Part shown: positions 53,032-59,150 of the stretch, piece by piece | Numbering within the stretch: the stretch's first letter is position 1 | How the letters are laid out: each line of letters begins with the position of its first letter | Assembly: GCA_019114415.1 (NCBI GenBank) | Contig: DXFO01000038.1 | Location: forward strand, 1-64,000 | Length of the DNA: 64,000 bases | From: Candidatus Gemmiger faecavium | Lineage (GTDB): Bacteria; Bacillota; Clostridia; Oscillospirales; Ruminococcaceae | Reading direction: 5' to 3' | Program-made: the position numbers and the translations under genes | Notes under the pieces: generated by a model | The model's database searches: none | The model's input: the letters and a program-made list of their open reading frames with translations, nothing else | Told to the model about the DNA's origin: nothing

Positions 53032-53059
53032 TTGCCTAGCGGCTATTTTATGCTATAAT
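53032..53059 (+). promoter_or_regulatory. Predicted promoter of LRR-vWA-AAA operon
   Basis: TTGCCT (53032-53037), 16-nt spacer, extended -10 TGCTATAAT (TATAAT 53054-53059). Confidence 0.65.
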
Positions 53060-53084
53060 GGCAGTATTGTAAAGGGGGCCGACA

Positions 53085-54041
53085 ATGAATTTTTCTCTTG
53101 GCTGTTTGTGGCAGCCCTGCCGTGACGGAGCAAGGCTGCTGAAAGTCTATGGGGACACCCCGTGCCCCGTCGTCCCCGGGCAAATCGAAGGCCTTCCCGT
53201 TATTGAGATCGGCCCTTACTGCTTTGCGGAAAAAGAACCGCAGGCGGGGCAGTTTTCCCTGCCGGATGGCATGTCCAAAGACGCACTCCATTGCATCTGC
53301 GGTAATTTTGTGGAGGAGATCACCCTCCCCGACAGCGTGACCGTGCTGGACAGCGCCGCGTTCTATAACTGCCGCAGTCTGCGGCGGCTGGAACTTGGCC
53401 CCAAATGTGAGTCACTGGGCAGTGATATGTTCACAAATTGCCGCAGTCTTGCCTGCCTTTCGCTGCGCTGCTCCCCTGCTTCCCCTTCCGGGCTCAAAAA
53501 GCTGATCGGCAGCATCAGCGCGGACATCTCCGTGGAATTCATCGAAAACCGGCAGACGCAAGCCCGCCTGTTTTTCCCGGAATACTTTGAATATCTGGAC
53601 GAAAACACTCCCGCGCATATTTTCAATCATAGCATCGAAGGAGAAGGCTACCGCTATCGCCAGTGCTTTGACGGTGCAGTCTTTCATGCGGCTGAATATG
53701 ACGCGGTTTTTGCGCAGGCCTGTGTTGGAGAACCCGCCGAGAAGCTTTGCCGCATCGCCTTGGAACGCCTCCGTTATCCTTATGCCCTCTCGGAAGATGC
53801 CAAAGAAGCGTATCTTTCGTATCTGCGCAGTCACACGGACACGCTGGTCTCTCCATATATCAATACCCGGGATCTGGACGCGCTGAGATTTATCAGCCGC
53901 CTGGATGTTTTGGATCATGCCGCCCGTGCGGCAGCCGCCGAAGCCTGCGGGCGGGTAGGTTTTGGCGCCGGAGCCGCTCTGTTTTTGAGCAGCGGAACTG
54001 CCAAACGTGCAGCAAAGCAATACAGTTTTGATGACCTTTGA
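53085..54041 (+). CDS. Leucine-rich repeat (BspA-like) protein with helical C-terminus
   Basis: EEITLPDSVTVLDSAAFYNCRSLRRLELGPKCESLGSDMFTNCRSLACLSL repeats; no obvious signal peptide. Confidence 0.75.
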   Translation: MNFSLGCLWQPCRDGARLLKVYGDTPCPVVPGQIEGLPVIEIGPYCFAEKEPQAGQFSLPDGMSKDALHCICGNFVEEITLPDSVTVLDSAAFYNCRSLRRLELGPKCESLGSDMFTNCRSLACLSLRCSPASPSGLKKLIGSISADISVEFIENRQTQARLFFPEYFEYLDENTPAHIFNHSIEGEGYRYRQCFDGAVFHAAEYDAVFAQACVGEPAEKLCRIALERLRYPYALSEDAKEAYLSYLRSHTDTLVSPYINTRDLDALRFISRLDVLDHAARAAAAEACGRVGFGAGAALFLSSGTAKRAAKQYSFDDL

Positions 54042-54077
54042 TGGTCCGGGAATTCAAAAAGGAAGGAGGAATCACCT

Positions 54078-55448
54078 TTGCCCGACAAACACATCCAGAC
54101 CCAGGCCGAATGGGAGAATACCATGGCCCGGAAAGTCTTTGCTGCGGTGCGCGGAGATCTTTACCTTGCCTTGCCATATATGAATTCCGCCCTCTGCGCT
54201 CTTGTTCCCGTATCCAGGCAGGAACTGCGAAGTTTTGCCACGGACGGCGCCGGCCTTTACTTTGCCGATGCCTGGCTGCTGCGCATTTACCGCAGCAACC
54301 GCAGGTTTCTCCCGCGCGCTTTCCTGCACAGTATCCTCCATTGCGTATTCCGGCATTTGTGGCTGCGCGGCAATCGTGACCCCGCCATCTGGAATATTGC
54401 CTGTGACATCTGTGTCGAGAATGTTCTGGACCGCGTGGACAACGATCTGCTTCGCCGCCCGGTGGGCTGGCTGCGTCAAAAGACTTACACAGACCTTACA
54501 AAGTCCTGCCGCATTTTGAGCGTCGGCCCGGTTTACCGGGAGCTTTGCACCCGGGACGCCGCGGAGCTGACTCGTTTACAGCACGAGTTTTACTGCGATG
54601 ACCACGGTTTCTGGCCCAAGGACCCCGACTCGCCCTCTGCGCAGATGCAGGGCAAGCGATGGGAACAGCTTGGCCGGGAAACGCAGCTTTCCATGCAGCA
54701 GGGCGGCACCCGCGCTTCCGATGCAGAAGCCGCATCCGCTCTTGCCGCGCAGGTCCAGGCCGGGCGCGGGAGAAAACTTTACCGCGACTTCCTGCGGCGC
54801 TTTTCCGTCTGGCGGGAAGAACCCCATCTTGATCTGGACGAGTTTGATCTGGGGTATTACAGTTACGGCCTTCGCACTTACGGCAATATGCCACTGATCG
54901 AGCCGCTGGAGACCCGGGAAAGCAAACGGGTCCGCGATCTTGCCATTGTTCTTGATACCAGCGAATCCACCTCCGGCGATCTTGTGAAAGCCTTTTTGAA
55001 AGAGACTTTCTCCATTTTGCGGACCAGTGAGACCTTTTTTGCCCGGTGCCGCATTCTTGTCCTGCAATGCGACGATGCCGTCCGGAGCGAAACCCTTTTA
55101 TCCGATTTGAATGCGCTGGACCGGTACGCCGACCGTTTTGTTCTGAAAGGCGGCGGCGGAACAGACTTCCGGCCTGCTTTTCAGCGGATCGAAGAACTGC
55201 GCGCCCAAGGCACGCTGCGCAACTTGCAGGGTGTTTTGTATTTTACCGACGGCAAAGGGATCTATCCTTCCCGGCGTCCGCCCTACGATGTGGCATTTCT
55301 GTTTCTGGACACCGGAGAGCCCGTGCCCGATGTACCGCCCTGGGCCATGCGCCTCATGCTGGAACCGGACGAGTTCATCGCACCGCAGGCGCCCAAACTC
55401 CCCGATTTTGACTTTGCCGCAGACCCGGAAGATCTGCCTCAGCTGTAA
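54078..55448 (+). CDS. vWA-like/putative metallopeptidase protein (DUF2201 type)
   Basis: N-terminal HSILHCVFRHLWLRG...WNIACDICVENVLD; C-terminal vWA with VLDTSES (DxSxS MIDAS), GGGGTDFRPAF, YFTDGKGIYP. Confidence 0.82.
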   Translation: MPDKHIQTQAEWENTMARKVFAAVRGDLYLALPYMNSALCALVPVSRQELRSFATDGAGLYFADAWLLRIYRSNRRFLPRAFLHSILHCVFRHLWLRGNRDPAIWNIACDICVENVLDRVDNDLLRRPVGWLRQKTYTDLTKSCRILSVGPVYRELCTRDAAELTRLQHEFYCDDHGFWPKDPDSPSAQMQGKRWEQLGRETQLSMQQGGTRASDAEAASALAAQVQAGRGRKLYRDFLRRFSVWREEPHLDLDEFDLGYYSYGLRTYGNMPLIEPLETRESKRVRDLAIVLDTSESTSGDLVKAFLKETFSILRTSETFFARCRILVLQCDDAVRSETLLSDLNALDRYADRFVLKGGGGTDFRPAFQRIEELRAQGTLRNLQGVLYFTDGKGIYPSRRPPYDVAFLFLDTGEPVPDVPPWAMRLMLEPDEFIAPQAPKLPDFDFAADPEDLPQL

Positions 55449-55487
55449 CAATACTCCCGCAAACATTGTCAGGAAGGTTGATAAACC

Positions 55488-57029
55488 ATGGATATCAAAA
55501 GAGCCAAACAGGAGATTGAAACCACCGTCCGGGCATATCTTGCCAAAGACGACGGCGGGAACTACCGCATCCCTGCCCTGCGTCAGCGCCCGCTGCTGCT
55601 GATGGGCCCTCCGGGTGTAGGCAAAACCCAGATCGTGGAGCAGGCAGCTCGCAGCTGCGGCATCGCTCTCGTCGCCTATACCATTACCCATCACACCCGC
55701 CAAAGCGCGGTTGGCCTGCCTTTTATCCGTCAGCGCGACATCGACGGAAAGACCTGCAGCGTGACCGAATATACCATGAGCGAGATCATCGCCAGCATCT
55801 ACACCAAGATGGAACAGACCGGCCTGCGGCAAGGCATTCTGTTCATTGATGAGATCAACTGTGTATCCGAGACGCTGGCCCCTACCATGCTCCAGTTTTT
55901 GCAGTACAAGACTTTTGGCAATCAGGCCATTCCCGAAGGCTGGGTCATTGTCGCGGCAGGCAACCCGCCTGAGTACAACAAATCCGTGCGGGAGTTCGAC
56001 CTGGTCACCCTCGACCGTGTCCGCCGCATCGATGTGGAGCCCAACTTGTCTGTCTGGCAGGAATATGCCCGCGCACAGCGCCTGCACCCGGCTGTGCTGG
56101 CATATCTGGAACTGCGCCCCCAGCATTTTTACAAAGTAGAGCAGGACGTGGACGGCATTCAGTTTGTCACCGCCCGCGGATGGGAGGATCTGTCCGCCAT
56201 GCTCGTCACCTGCGATGCGCTGGATCTGCCTGTGGATGAAGCCGTTATCGGAGAATATCTGCGTCATCCCGATGTAATGCGGGACTTTGCCGCCTATTGG
56301 GCACTGTACAAAAAATACCGCAGCGATTACGGCATCGAGGACATCCTGCGCGGACGTCCCGCCGACAAAGTCGTGGCCCGCGCTTTGGATGCCGCTTTTG
56401 ATGAACGGCTGTCCCTTGTCAGCCTTCTGCTGGCGGGTCTTAACGTGCGTTTTTCGGCAGCAAGAGAGAACGACGCCGTGACCGACGCCTGCTATCAGCA
56501 GCTGCGGACCTTCAAGCGTGCGTTGTCCCAGCCTGACCAGCAGGAGGACTCCCCCACTGCTATTCTTGCCCGTCAGTGTGCCGACGCACAAGCCCGTCTG
56601 GATCGCGAAAAAGCTGCCGGACGCATGACGCCTTATGAATTGGGCATCCATCGCCGTGCCGTTTCCCTTCTGCAAAATTGGTCTGAAACCATTTCTCAGG
56701 AATTCGACGCCGATGAAACTTTTGATGCCGTGCGTGCAGGCTTTAACCAGCAGGTCCGCAAGCGTGAGGACTCCGTGGCTGCCGCATCCGATGCGCTGGA
56801 ATTTGCATTTGATTTTATGGAGCGCTGCTTTGCCCAACAGCAGGAAATGGTCGTTTTTGTCAACGAGCTGGCGCTGGGGCCCGACTCTGCGCCCTTCCTC
56901 GCCGAAAACGAATGCGAACGCTTTGACATGTACAGCCGCACACTGCTGCTTGATTCCAACCATGATGAGCTCTTGGCAGAGCTTCAGCGGGACGATATCC
57001 GCAGCAATGAACACAGCGCAGATTTCTGA
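55488..57029 (+). CDS. MoxR-type AAA+ ATPase
   Basis: LLLMGPPGVGKTQIVEQAA Walker A, ILFIDEINCVSETLAPTMLQFLQ Walker B, VIVAAGNPPEYNKSVREFD sensor 1. Confidence 0.88.
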   Translation: MDIKRAKQEIETTVRAYLAKDDGGNYRIPALRQRPLLLMGPPGVGKTQIVEQAARSCGIALVAYTITHHTRQSAVGLPFIRQRDIDGKTCSVTEYTMSEIIASIYTKMEQTGLRQGILFIDEINCVSETLAPTMLQFLQYKTFGNQAIPEGWVIVAAGNPPEYNKSVREFDLVTLDRVRRIDVEPNLSVWQEYARAQRLHPAVLAYLELRPQHFYKVEQDVDGIQFVTARGWEDLSAMLVTCDALDLPVDEAVIGEYLRHPDVMRDFAAYWALYKKYRSDYGIEDILRGRPADKVVARALDAAFDERLSLVSLLLAGLNVRFSAARENDAVTDACYQQLRTFKRALSQPDQQEDSPTAILARQCADAQARLDREKAAGRMTPYELGIHRRAVSLLQNWSETISQEFDADETFDAVRAGFNQQVRKREDSVAAASDALEFAFDFMERCFAQQQEMVVFVNELALGPDSAPFLAENECERFDMYSRTLLLDSNHDELLAELQRDDIRSNEHSADF

Positions 57030-57044
57030 CAACATGTAAATAAG

Positions 57045-57078
57045 CCCCGGCAGTTCTCGTTAAGAGCTGCCGGGGTTT
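57045..57078 (+). terminator. Intrinsic terminator of LRR-vWA-AAA operon
   Basis: CCCCGGCAG...CTGCCGGGG followed by TTTATTTATT. Confidence 0.82.
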
Positions 57079-57176
57079 ATTTATTATATTTCTTTTTCAA
57101 GACGCAGCAGATTCTCCGAGCGGACAATTCATATTTCGGAGTTCGGATTTTTACAAGTGTATTTCCTGATTTCCTA

Positions 57177-57263: not shown

Positions 57264-57638
57264 TTGAATTGGAATATTACTGCCGGGCGTCCTGTCTATG
57301 TACAGCTGATCGAACAGCTGGAACTTGCCATCGTCACCGGTGATTATCCCCTTGGCAGCCGCATTCCACCGGTGCGGGAACTCGCCGCGGAAGCCGGAGT
57401 CAATCCCAACACCATGCAGCGTGCCCTTCAGGAGCTCGAAACGCGGGGGTTGCTGCAAACCATGCGGACCTCGGGGCGTATCGTGAGTGCCGACGAACAG
57501 ACACTGCATGACCTGCGGCAGAAACGCGCCGAGGTTTGTCTTTCTGATTTTTTGCTTCAGATGCAGAAACTGGGCTACTCCCGTCAGGAGACCCTCGATC
57601 TGTTTCAGCAGGCAGATTTCCCCTCGGAAAACCGGTAA
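57264..57638 (+). CDS. GntR family (YtrA-like) transcriptional regulator
   Basis: PVYVQLIEQLELAIVTGDYPLGSRIPPVRELAAEAGVNPNTMQRALQELETRGLLQTMRTSGRIV; short C-terminus. Confidence 0.92.
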   Translation: MNWNITAGRPVYVQLIEQLELAIVTGDYPLGSRIPPVRELAAEAGVNPNTMQRALQELETRGLLQTMRTSGRIVSADEQTLHDLRQKRAEVCLSDFLLQMQKLGYSRQETLDLFQQADFPSENR

Positions 57639-57651
57639 AGGAGGAGTTTTG

Positions 57652-58350
57652 ATGCACCCTATTTTTGAAACACGTAAGCTAAGCAAGCAATATAAGCAGA
57701 TCCATGCCTTAAATAATCTGGACCTTATTCTGACGTCCGGGAAAATGGTCGGGCTTTTGGGTCCCAATGGAAGCGGCAAAACCACGTTGCTGAAAATCAG
57801 TGCCGGACTTTTGACCCCGAGCAGCGGATGCGTTCTGATTAACGGCCAGGCGCCGGGAACCGAAACCAAAAAGATCGTCTCCTACCTGCCCGACCGCATG
57901 TCGCTCCCCACCGAATTGACTGCCGCGGATACCCTCGCCATGTATGGTGACTTTTTCCAGGATTTCGACAAAGAAAAAGCGCACGACATGCTGAAAGCCC
58001 TGAAGCTATCCCCTGCGCAGCGCATCGGTACCATGAGCAAAGGCACTCAGGAAAAATTTCAGATTTGCCTGACGATGAGCCGTTCGGCAAAGCTGTATCT
58101 TCTGGATGAGCCTCTTGGCGGCGTGGACCCTGCGGCCCGGGAATATATCCTCTCCACCATTCTGCGCAATTACAGCGAAAACTCTACGGTTCTGTTCTCG
58201 ACGCATCTGATCGGCGACATTGAAAAGGCCCTGGACGAAGTCGTGATCTTGCGCAATGGTTCGCTGATTTTACACGACAGCGTCGATCATCTGCGGGAAG
58301 AAAAAGGCATGAGCGTCGACGAATATTTTAAGGAGGTATTTCGATGCTGA
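57652..58350 (+). CDS. ABC transporter ATP-binding protein
   Basis: GLLGPNGSGKTTLLKISAGLL; LYLLDEPLGGVDPAAREYIL; LFSTHLIGDIE. Confidence 0.93.
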   Translation: MHPIFETRKLSKQYKQIHALNNLDLILTSGKMVGLLGPNGSGKTTLLKISAGLLTPSSGCVLINGQAPGTETKKIVSYLPDRMSLPTELTAADTLAMYGDFFQDFDKEKAHDMLKALKLSPAQRIGTMSKGTQEKFQICLTMSRSAKLYLLDEPLGGVDPAAREYILSTILRNYSENSTVLFSTHLIGDIEKALDEVVILRNGSLILHDSVDHLREEKGMSVDEYFKEVFRC

Positions 58351-59150
58351 GCAAACTTCTGAAATATGAATACCGCGCAACGGCAAAGATTCTGCTGCCC
58401 CTCTATCTGGGCGTTCTTTTTGTCATCATGCTCAATGTTCTGGTGTTCCGTATCGGCACTCTTTGTCCTGTCCTTGGTTCCGGTACACCGTACACGGTCA
58501 TTCAGGTTTTGCTGACTTTTCTCTGCGGCCTCGGCCTTTTGGCGGTCCTTGCTGTAAGCTTTTTTATGGGAATCCAGCGTTTTTACAGCCTTTTGGGTAC
58601 ACGGGGATATTTGATGTTCAGTCTGCCCGTAACGACCAATCAGTTGATCGCTTCCAAATTGATCTGCGCCGTAAGCTGGATGACTGCCAGTTTCCTCCTT
58701 TGCAACATTCTTTTCCGTATGATTGGTCTGCCCACGGAGGGCAGCGACCTGGTAATCGCGCCCATGGGAGAAACGCTGCCTTTGTTTGTCAGCCTCTGCC
58801 TTGCAATTTTGTCTATGTTCTGCTGTGCGTTCCTGTTTTTCTATTTTTGCATTGCGATCGGCGGTCAATGGCCGCAGAACCGGCTGCTTGCCACCGTGGT
58901 CTGCTATTTTGTAATTTCGTTCCTTTTGCAGCTCCTGCTGATCGTCGGAATGATGATCCTTGGTACAATCATCTATTTCAGCGGCATAGAGGCATTCGGG
59001 AATGCCACACAGGCAATCGCAAGTGTGGTGACATCATACCAACTGATCAGCATCATTTTACTGTGCATGTTCTTGTTTTTTGCCGTGGGAAGTGTTATTC
59101 TGTGGTTACTGACTCGCCACTTTCTCACTCGAAAACTCAATCTTGCCTGA
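58344..59150 (+). CDS. ABC-2 type transporter permease
   Basis: Polytopic protein overlapping the ATPase stop; starts MLSKLLKYEYRATAKILLPLYLG. Confidence 0.85.
   Translation: MLSKLLKYEYRATAKILLPLYLGVLFVIMLNVLVFRIGTLCPVLGSGTPYTVIQVLLTFLCGLGLLAVLAVSFFMGIQRFYSLLGTRGYLMFSLPVTTNQLIASKLICAVSWMTASFLLCNILFRMIGLPTEGSDLVIAPMGETLPLFVSLCLAILSMFCCAFLFFYFCIAIGGQWPQNRLLATVVCYFVISFLLQLLLIVGMMILGTIIYFSGIEAFGNATQAIASVVTSYQLISIILLCMFLFFAVGSVILWLLTRHFLTRKLNLA

Follow-up and report, generated by a model that had tools for sequence, protein, structure and literature searches.

Does a leucine-rich repeat (LRR) protein work together with a MoxR ATPase and its von Willebrand factor A (vWA) partner, or does it only lie next to them? 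The question is raised by three adjacent genes of Candidatus Gemmiger faecavium (assembly GCA_019114415.1, contig DXFO01000038.1), found near the end of the 64,000-nucleotide stretch that was analysed (positions 1 to 64,000 of the contig, from here on the window). They encode a BspA-type LRR protein, a DUF2201/vWA protein and a MoxR-type AAA+ ATPase. Where the function of a MoxR-vWA pair is known, the pair remodels a client. An original prediction, made from the sequence of the window, had described the trio as a self-contained operon, had suggested the LRR protein as an adaptor or recognition subunit, and had mentioned a possible link to vWA-MoxR conflict systems. That the three genes form a real module is well supported by the data below: a third protein is co-encoded with the pair across lineages, and in this general sense the trio is a MoxR-vWA ternary system. 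We consider it moderately probable that the LRR protein is the client-recognition subunit of this system, tethered by its C-terminal tail.

Conservation of the LRR gene beside the vWA-MoxR pair

The three genes are co-oriented on the + strand with intergenic gaps of 36 and 39 nt, as confirmed by an open reading frame (ORF) check, and the proposed promoter and terminator were found in their places (Table 1). Pfam matches above cut-off were obtained for all three proteins, in agreement with what had been anticipated: LRR_5 for the first, which places it among the BspA-type LRR proteins; DUF2201_N (1e-9; 38.8 bits, gathering cut-off 23.2) and DUF2201 (4e-10; 40.4 bits, cut-off 26.4) for the vWA protein; and AAA_5 (7e-9) for the ATPase, whose Walker A, Walker B and sensor-1 motifs and adjacent vWA partner gene identify it as a MoxR-type AAA+ protein. 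The CTTGCC...TGCTATAAT promoter block was also present upstream of the orthologous gene in loci L031 and L042, and the -10 element in L032, L034 and L035. Because the block is kept upstream of orthologues it is more than a chance match, and a single conserved promoter is predicted to drive the trio in Gemmiger. The LRR, vWA and MoxR genes are under purifying selection, with ratios of nonsynonymous to synonymous substitution rates (dN/dS) of 0.12, 0.06 and 0.05 against L031, values that are approximate since dS is close to saturation.

The vWA protein was detected in 31 of 34 other sampled genomes of the genus and is rare elsewhere in the order. All 30 Gemmiger loci recovered by the genome search have the three genes adjacent. 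A scan of genome contigs for this MoxR yielded 51 loci from Gemmiger and Lachnospiraceae, including Blautia wexlerae, Anaerostipes hominis, Dorea phocaeensis and Faecalicatena. Of these loci, 48 also contain the LRR and vWA genes, and the remaining three (L076, L077 and L079) begin or end near the match, at contig ends. Over the class, 24 of 388 genomes carry this MoxR, and an LRR_5 protein shares the locus in 20; the exceptions are G145 (no LRR protein seen), G333, G342 (contig end) and G377. The trio was also present in the three genomes from other classes of the phylum. This neighbourhood survey, covering Gemmiger, Clostridia and other classes, thus upheld the expectation that the LRR gene stays beside the pair in relatives. 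At the locus of G333 (L124) the vWA gene is split in two frames, and the only LRR_5 protein of that genome, a tailed one, lies on another contig, which possibly reflects decay of the system.

At least five gene arrangements keep the LRR gene near the pair. The order LRR-vWA-MoxR is found in the window, in Gemmiger and in most Lachnospiraceae, and the intact loci of this type have mostly short gaps and some overlaps. The order is vWA-MoxR-LRR in L111, L112, L115, L116, L118, L122, L125, L130 and L249, and vWA-LRR-MoxR in L129; the LRR and MoxR genes are adjacent with the vWA gene a few kb away in L047, L056, L069 and L081, and L062 is arranged divergently. Two LRR genes occur in L110 and three in L115. 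Comparison of the distance matrices of the three proteins over 69 loci gave correlations of 0.93-0.95, which measure co-inheritance and not contact and are in great part due to shared ancestry. In the surveyed loci no recurrent fourth gene was found beyond lineage synteny with genes that we take, from their sequences, to be glnS/MATE, dihydroorotase and rpsF-ssb-rpsR.

At 15 other DUF2201_N-MoxR loci of Clostridia, used as controls, no tailed LRR protein was found; two of them (L196 and L201) do have LRR_5 proteins nearby, in which no tail was detected. In a FastTree tree rooted with other DUF2201 pairs, the LRR-linked loci form one group, as seen on a topology that does not include branch support values; L126, inside the group, lacks the LRR gene, as does L128, a sister of the group.

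The LRR protein and its C-terminal tail

The AlphaFold2 (AF2) model of the LRR protein shows a short BspA-type LRR region, a strand-rich middle and seven C-terminal helices. Foldseek and sequence searches matched the LRR_5 structures 6mlx, 4gt6 and 4fs7 over the LRR part only, and no fold relative of the tail was recognised in the PDB search. Pfam found LRR_5 and nothing else in this protein, which had no match in NCBIfam or PADLOC; scans of all the trio proteins against these two collections gave nothing specific. Hydropathy indicates no transmembrane segment or signal peptide in any of the three (19-residue maximum 1.2-1.4), in line with the cytoplasmic location that had been proposed for the LRR protein.

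The LRR subunits range from about 270 to 1186 aa across loci and differ between lineages in repeat number and architecture. The tail, or a version of it, is present in proteins of very different length, and since both it and the C-terminal end occur throughout that range, these two parts are constrained and the number of repeats is not. By dN/dS comparison the LRR region evolves no faster than the tail. Two loci have unusual architectures. In L129 (5871-8036), from a genome with 92 LRR_5 matches, a BRCT domain separates the tail of the LRR subunit from a second LRR block, and L115 (931-8525) has three tandem LRR paralogues of 837-861 aa, each one tailed, downstream of a single vWA-MoxR pair.

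The tail profile matched 19 of the 388 class genomes, all of them MoxR-positive (hypergeometric P about 8e-27, which is overstated because the profile included sequences from some of these genomes and because the genomes are related), and the same search detected no tail-domain protein in the 364 sampled genomes that lack this MoxR. The extreme C-terminus is also distinctive. An aromatic-acidic-(0-3)-hydrophobic end is shared by 54 of the 75 LRR subunits but by only 5 of 783 neighbouring ORFs and one of 155 vWA or MoxR proteins (Fisher P 5e-62), and it was found in 15 of 27 LRR subunits of a diverged sample (P 9e-21); these P values are indicative only, the pattern having been set after inspection of the ends and the sequences being related. 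Two of the three out-of-class LRR proteins end in YEL, which was seen after the pattern had been defined.

The vWA co-chaperone and the MoxR ATPase

The vWA protein was modelled with a mean predicted local distance difference test (pLDDT) score of 81, and the model matched vWA domains in Foldseek. Its metal ion-dependent adhesion site (MIDAS) is intact and conserved among orthologues, as are the Walker A, Walker B and sensor-1 motifs of the ATPase, all of which had been read correctly from the window. So had the sequence HSILHCVFRH in place of HExxH, and the doubt expressed about peptidase activity was borne out by the whole clade: position 85 is M, S, L, T, I, A, V, N or C, and the catalytic Glu of an active HExxH metallopeptidase occurs in 0 of 73 LRR-linked members, against 9 of 17 related sequences outside the clade. 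H84 and H88 are invariant in the alignment (A2) and H93 is kept in 71 of 73 members. As the histidines of the metal site are kept and the Glu is never present, the site persists but lacks the catalytic acid; a residue of the next predicted helix, E114, could be a third ligand. Most control loci have HExxH and some have HCxxH or HQxxH; loss of the Glu is not unique to the LRR-linked clade.

Residues 245-283 of the vWA protein are among its best conserved, yet they have pLDDT values below 50 in the monomer model. This is as expected for a segment ordered only on a partner, and we propose it as the equivalent of the finger described for NorD. A further match, near full length, was found between the vWA protein and PHROG_1314 (9e-34), labelled 'HNH endonuclease', a label that is probably wrong.

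A proposed mechanism and its alternatives

In the NorQ/NorD system function depends on the MIDAS, ring binding does not, acidic residues of the client are candidate MIDAS ligands, and the VWA finger has been proposed to enter the ring (PMC9976466). By analogy, the three genes of the window may encode one cytoplasmic ternary machine. MoxR would form an ATP-hydrolysing AAA+ ring and the DUF2201/vWA protein would be its co-chaperone, contacting the ring through the conserved segment ahead of the vWA fold, while its peptidase-like N-domain would be a non-catalytic scaffold, possibly metal-binding. The MIDAS would grip an acidic ligand, for which the acidic and conserved C-terminus of the LRR protein is a natural candidate. 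We infer that the three proteins form a complex in which the helical tail and this C-terminus contact the vWA protein, tethering the LRR protein to the vWA-MoxR core, that the LRR surface binds the target client, and that ATP hydrolysis leads either to remodelling of the bound client or to release of the LRR-client complex. Its occurrence throughout the genus suggests that the target of the system is a resident cellular one, in maturation, assembly or quality control. A more ambitious version, which we put forward only tentatively, is that the LRR protein is an exchangeable adaptor, with a tail domain and an acidic docking peptide, that programmes a MoxR-vWA core which arose from a dead metallopeptidase; this would be an undescribed class of AAA+ machine, in which lineages with a set of LRR adaptors, such as the three tandem ones of L115, could direct one motor to several targets, analogous to adaptor-programmed AAA+ proteases.

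Several data weigh against a tethered recognition subunit. L126, a member of the clade, has the vWA-MoxR pair with no LRR gene in view, which means that the LRR protein is not strictly obligatory. The C-terminal motif is missing in the LRR subunits of L111, L129 and L249 and in two of the three L115 paralogues. Because some of the proteins behind the tail profile (A4) came from the very genomes that were sampled, its positives are in part circular; free of this circularity are the hits of a hidden Markov model (HMM) built from the genome-contig set alone, the lack of the tail in MoxR-negative genomes, and the out-of-class loci.

The same linkage can be read the other way round, with the LRR protein as a dedicated client that MoxR-vWA holds by its tail and C-terminus and folds, assembles or activates. 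A dedicated substrate would account equally well for the strict genetic linkage and for a tail that serves as a handle, and the L115 paralogues look as if several clients shared one machine. We find this rather unlikely, since in Gemmiger the LRR protein is small, cytoplasmic as judged from its sequence and without any enzymatic or cofactor domain needing maturation, and an adaptor accounts for the combination of a constrained tail with a variable number of repeats better than a single client does. That the LRR gene is a co-transcribed neighbour of unrelated function is very improbable. Some Clostridia have large numbers of BspA-type LRR proteins (92 LRR_5 matches in G043, for example), which makes chance neighbours possible there, but the adjacency survives rearrangements and holds in genomes with only two LRR_5 matches (the window genome and G100, where both are in the locus), the tail is confined in our sample to genomes with this MoxR, and other DUF2201-MoxR pairs come without a tailed LRR protein.

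Another alternative is a role in defence as a vWA-MoxR conflict system, with the LRR protein sensing an invader and the switch triggering a response. The ternary logic resembles that of the VMAP, iSTAND and TERNS3 systems, the distribution is patchy at class level (24 of 388 genomes), and LRR number and architecture vary by lineage. In the known ternary conflict systems, VMAP, iSTAND, FtsH or beta-propeller parts occur together with effector domains (PMC7159879, PMC8195603), whereas none of these was found here: the third protein has only LRR_5 in Pfam, bpMoxR scored 19.3 bits against a cut-off of 27, the vWA protein has no propeller, and no scanned component has an effector domain. PADLOC gave only weak AAA cross-matches and no relevant one, no additional gene recurs, plasmids and IMG/VR yielded no close relative, the system is nearly universal in the genus, and the LRR gene, at its dN/dS, has an LRR region no faster than its tail. 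We consequently regard a defence role as improbable, and this part of the original prediction was not supported; nothing found points to defence or mobility of the trio.

Plasmid and phage origins were also considered and rejected. Plasmids and IMG/VR hold only remote MoxR genes, often beside a vWA gene and without an LRR gene; on the viral side this is the arrangement of many IMG/VR contigs (L206-L239). Seven unannotated faecal 'Bacteriophage sp.' records match MoxR well, and the largest one inspected looks like a bacterial chromosome under a wrong label, as its flanks carry DegV, Mur-ligase, M18 peptidase and aminotransferase genes. The three records inspected (MT835935.1, MT837937.1 and MT836813.1; L243-L245), entered as 'UNVERIFIED: Bacteriophage sp.', contain the trio genes, with the LRR gene fragmentary in L245.

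Comparison with known MoxR-vWA systems

We compared the trio with described systems. It shares with the MoxR-vWA ternary systems (VMAP, iSTAND, FtsH and beta-propeller, and later iSTAND2 and TERNS3; PMC7159879, PMC8195603) a MoxR AAA+ protein, a vWA co-chaperone and a conserved, co-encoded third protein, but here a BspA-type LRR protein with a helical tail takes the third place, the vWA protein is of DUF2201_N-DUF2201 type, effector and effector-associated domains are absent, and the hosts are Clostridia and relatives instead of the classically multicellular groups. With NorQ/NorD and CbbQ/CbbO (PMC9976466) the expected common principle is a MoxR ring, a vWA finger and a MIDAS gripping an acidic ligand; the trio differs in lacking a nearby metallo-enzyme client gene, in having a separate LRR subunit and in its vWA N-domain. 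RavA-ViaA (PMC9489729, PMC3893208) is likewise a MoxR ATPase with a vWA partner acting without a metallopeptidase reaction, but it is two-component and has no LRR subunit. The two-gene form, a DUF2201_N (putative metallopeptidase)-DUF2201 vWA protein with an adjacent MoxR, has the same two Pfam domains and, at the 15 Clostridia loci examined, differs from the trio in having no tailed LRR protein and mostly an HExxH motif.

No description of the trio was found in the open-licence literature, and a paper outside it could describe the system. Should the three proteins work as a machine, gut bacteria as common as Gemmiger, Blautia, Anaerostipes, Dorea, Faecalicatena and other Lachnospiraceae would possess an ATP-driven protein remodeller with an LRR recognition subunit, adding an LRR-based design to the MoxR-vWA ternary systems outside the multicellular groups in which those were described. 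It would also offer a concrete docking hypothesis, with the acidic LRR C-terminus bound to the vWA MIDAS or to MoxR.

Features of the locus

Table 1. Position of the features of the LRR-vWA-MoxR locus in the window.
Feature	Position	Strand	Evidence
Extended -10 promoter, TTGCCT-16-TATAAT, TG ahead of -10	53032..53059	+	Sequence and conservation
LRR subunit gene, 318 aa, proposed third component of the ternary system	53085..54041	+	ORF; LRR_5 1e-10; AF2 model, mean pLDDT 93
BspA-type LRR region, residues 40-126, candidate recognition surface	53202..53462	+	Pfam; Foldseek and sequence matches to 6mlx, 4gt6, 4fs7
Helix and strands, residues 137-185, FPEYFEYLDENTPAHIF motif, best conserved region of the LRR protein	53493..53639	+	Alignment, model
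C-terminal helical tail domain, residues 202-302, common to LRR subunits of the clade	53688..53990	+	Profile/HMM hits, model
C-terminal motif FDDL-COOH; clade pattern aromatic-acidic-(0-3)-hydrophobic	54027..54038	+	End-motif counts
DUF2201_N + vWA (DUF2201) co-chaperone gene, 456 aa, TTG start	54078..55448	+	ORF, Pfam, AF2 model, Foldseek
HxxxHxxxxH motif, H84, H88, H93; candidate metal site, inactivated HExxH peptidase-like domain	54327..54356	+	Alignment, controls
Segment 245-283, highly conserved, low-confidence in monomer model; candidate finger to the MoxR ring	54810..54926	+	Alignment, model, NorD analogy
MIDAS DTSES, residues 293-297	54954..54968	+	Alignment
MoxR-type AAA+ ATPase gene, 513 aa, C-terminal extension without Pfam match	55488..57029	+	ORF, Pfam, alignment
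Walker A GPPGVGKT	55605..55628	+	Alignment
Walker B ILFIDE	55836..55853	+	Alignment
Sensor-1 region AGNPPEYN	55956..55979	+	Alignment
R177, candidate arginine finger (LDR)	56016..56018	+	Nearly invariant; role by analogy to MoxR proteins
Intrinsic terminator, 20-pair stem	57037..57083	+	Sequence

Downstream of the trio, at positions 57264-59150 of the window, lie genes for a GntR-family regulator, an ABC ATPase and a membrane protein, which have their own promoter and are separate from the trio.

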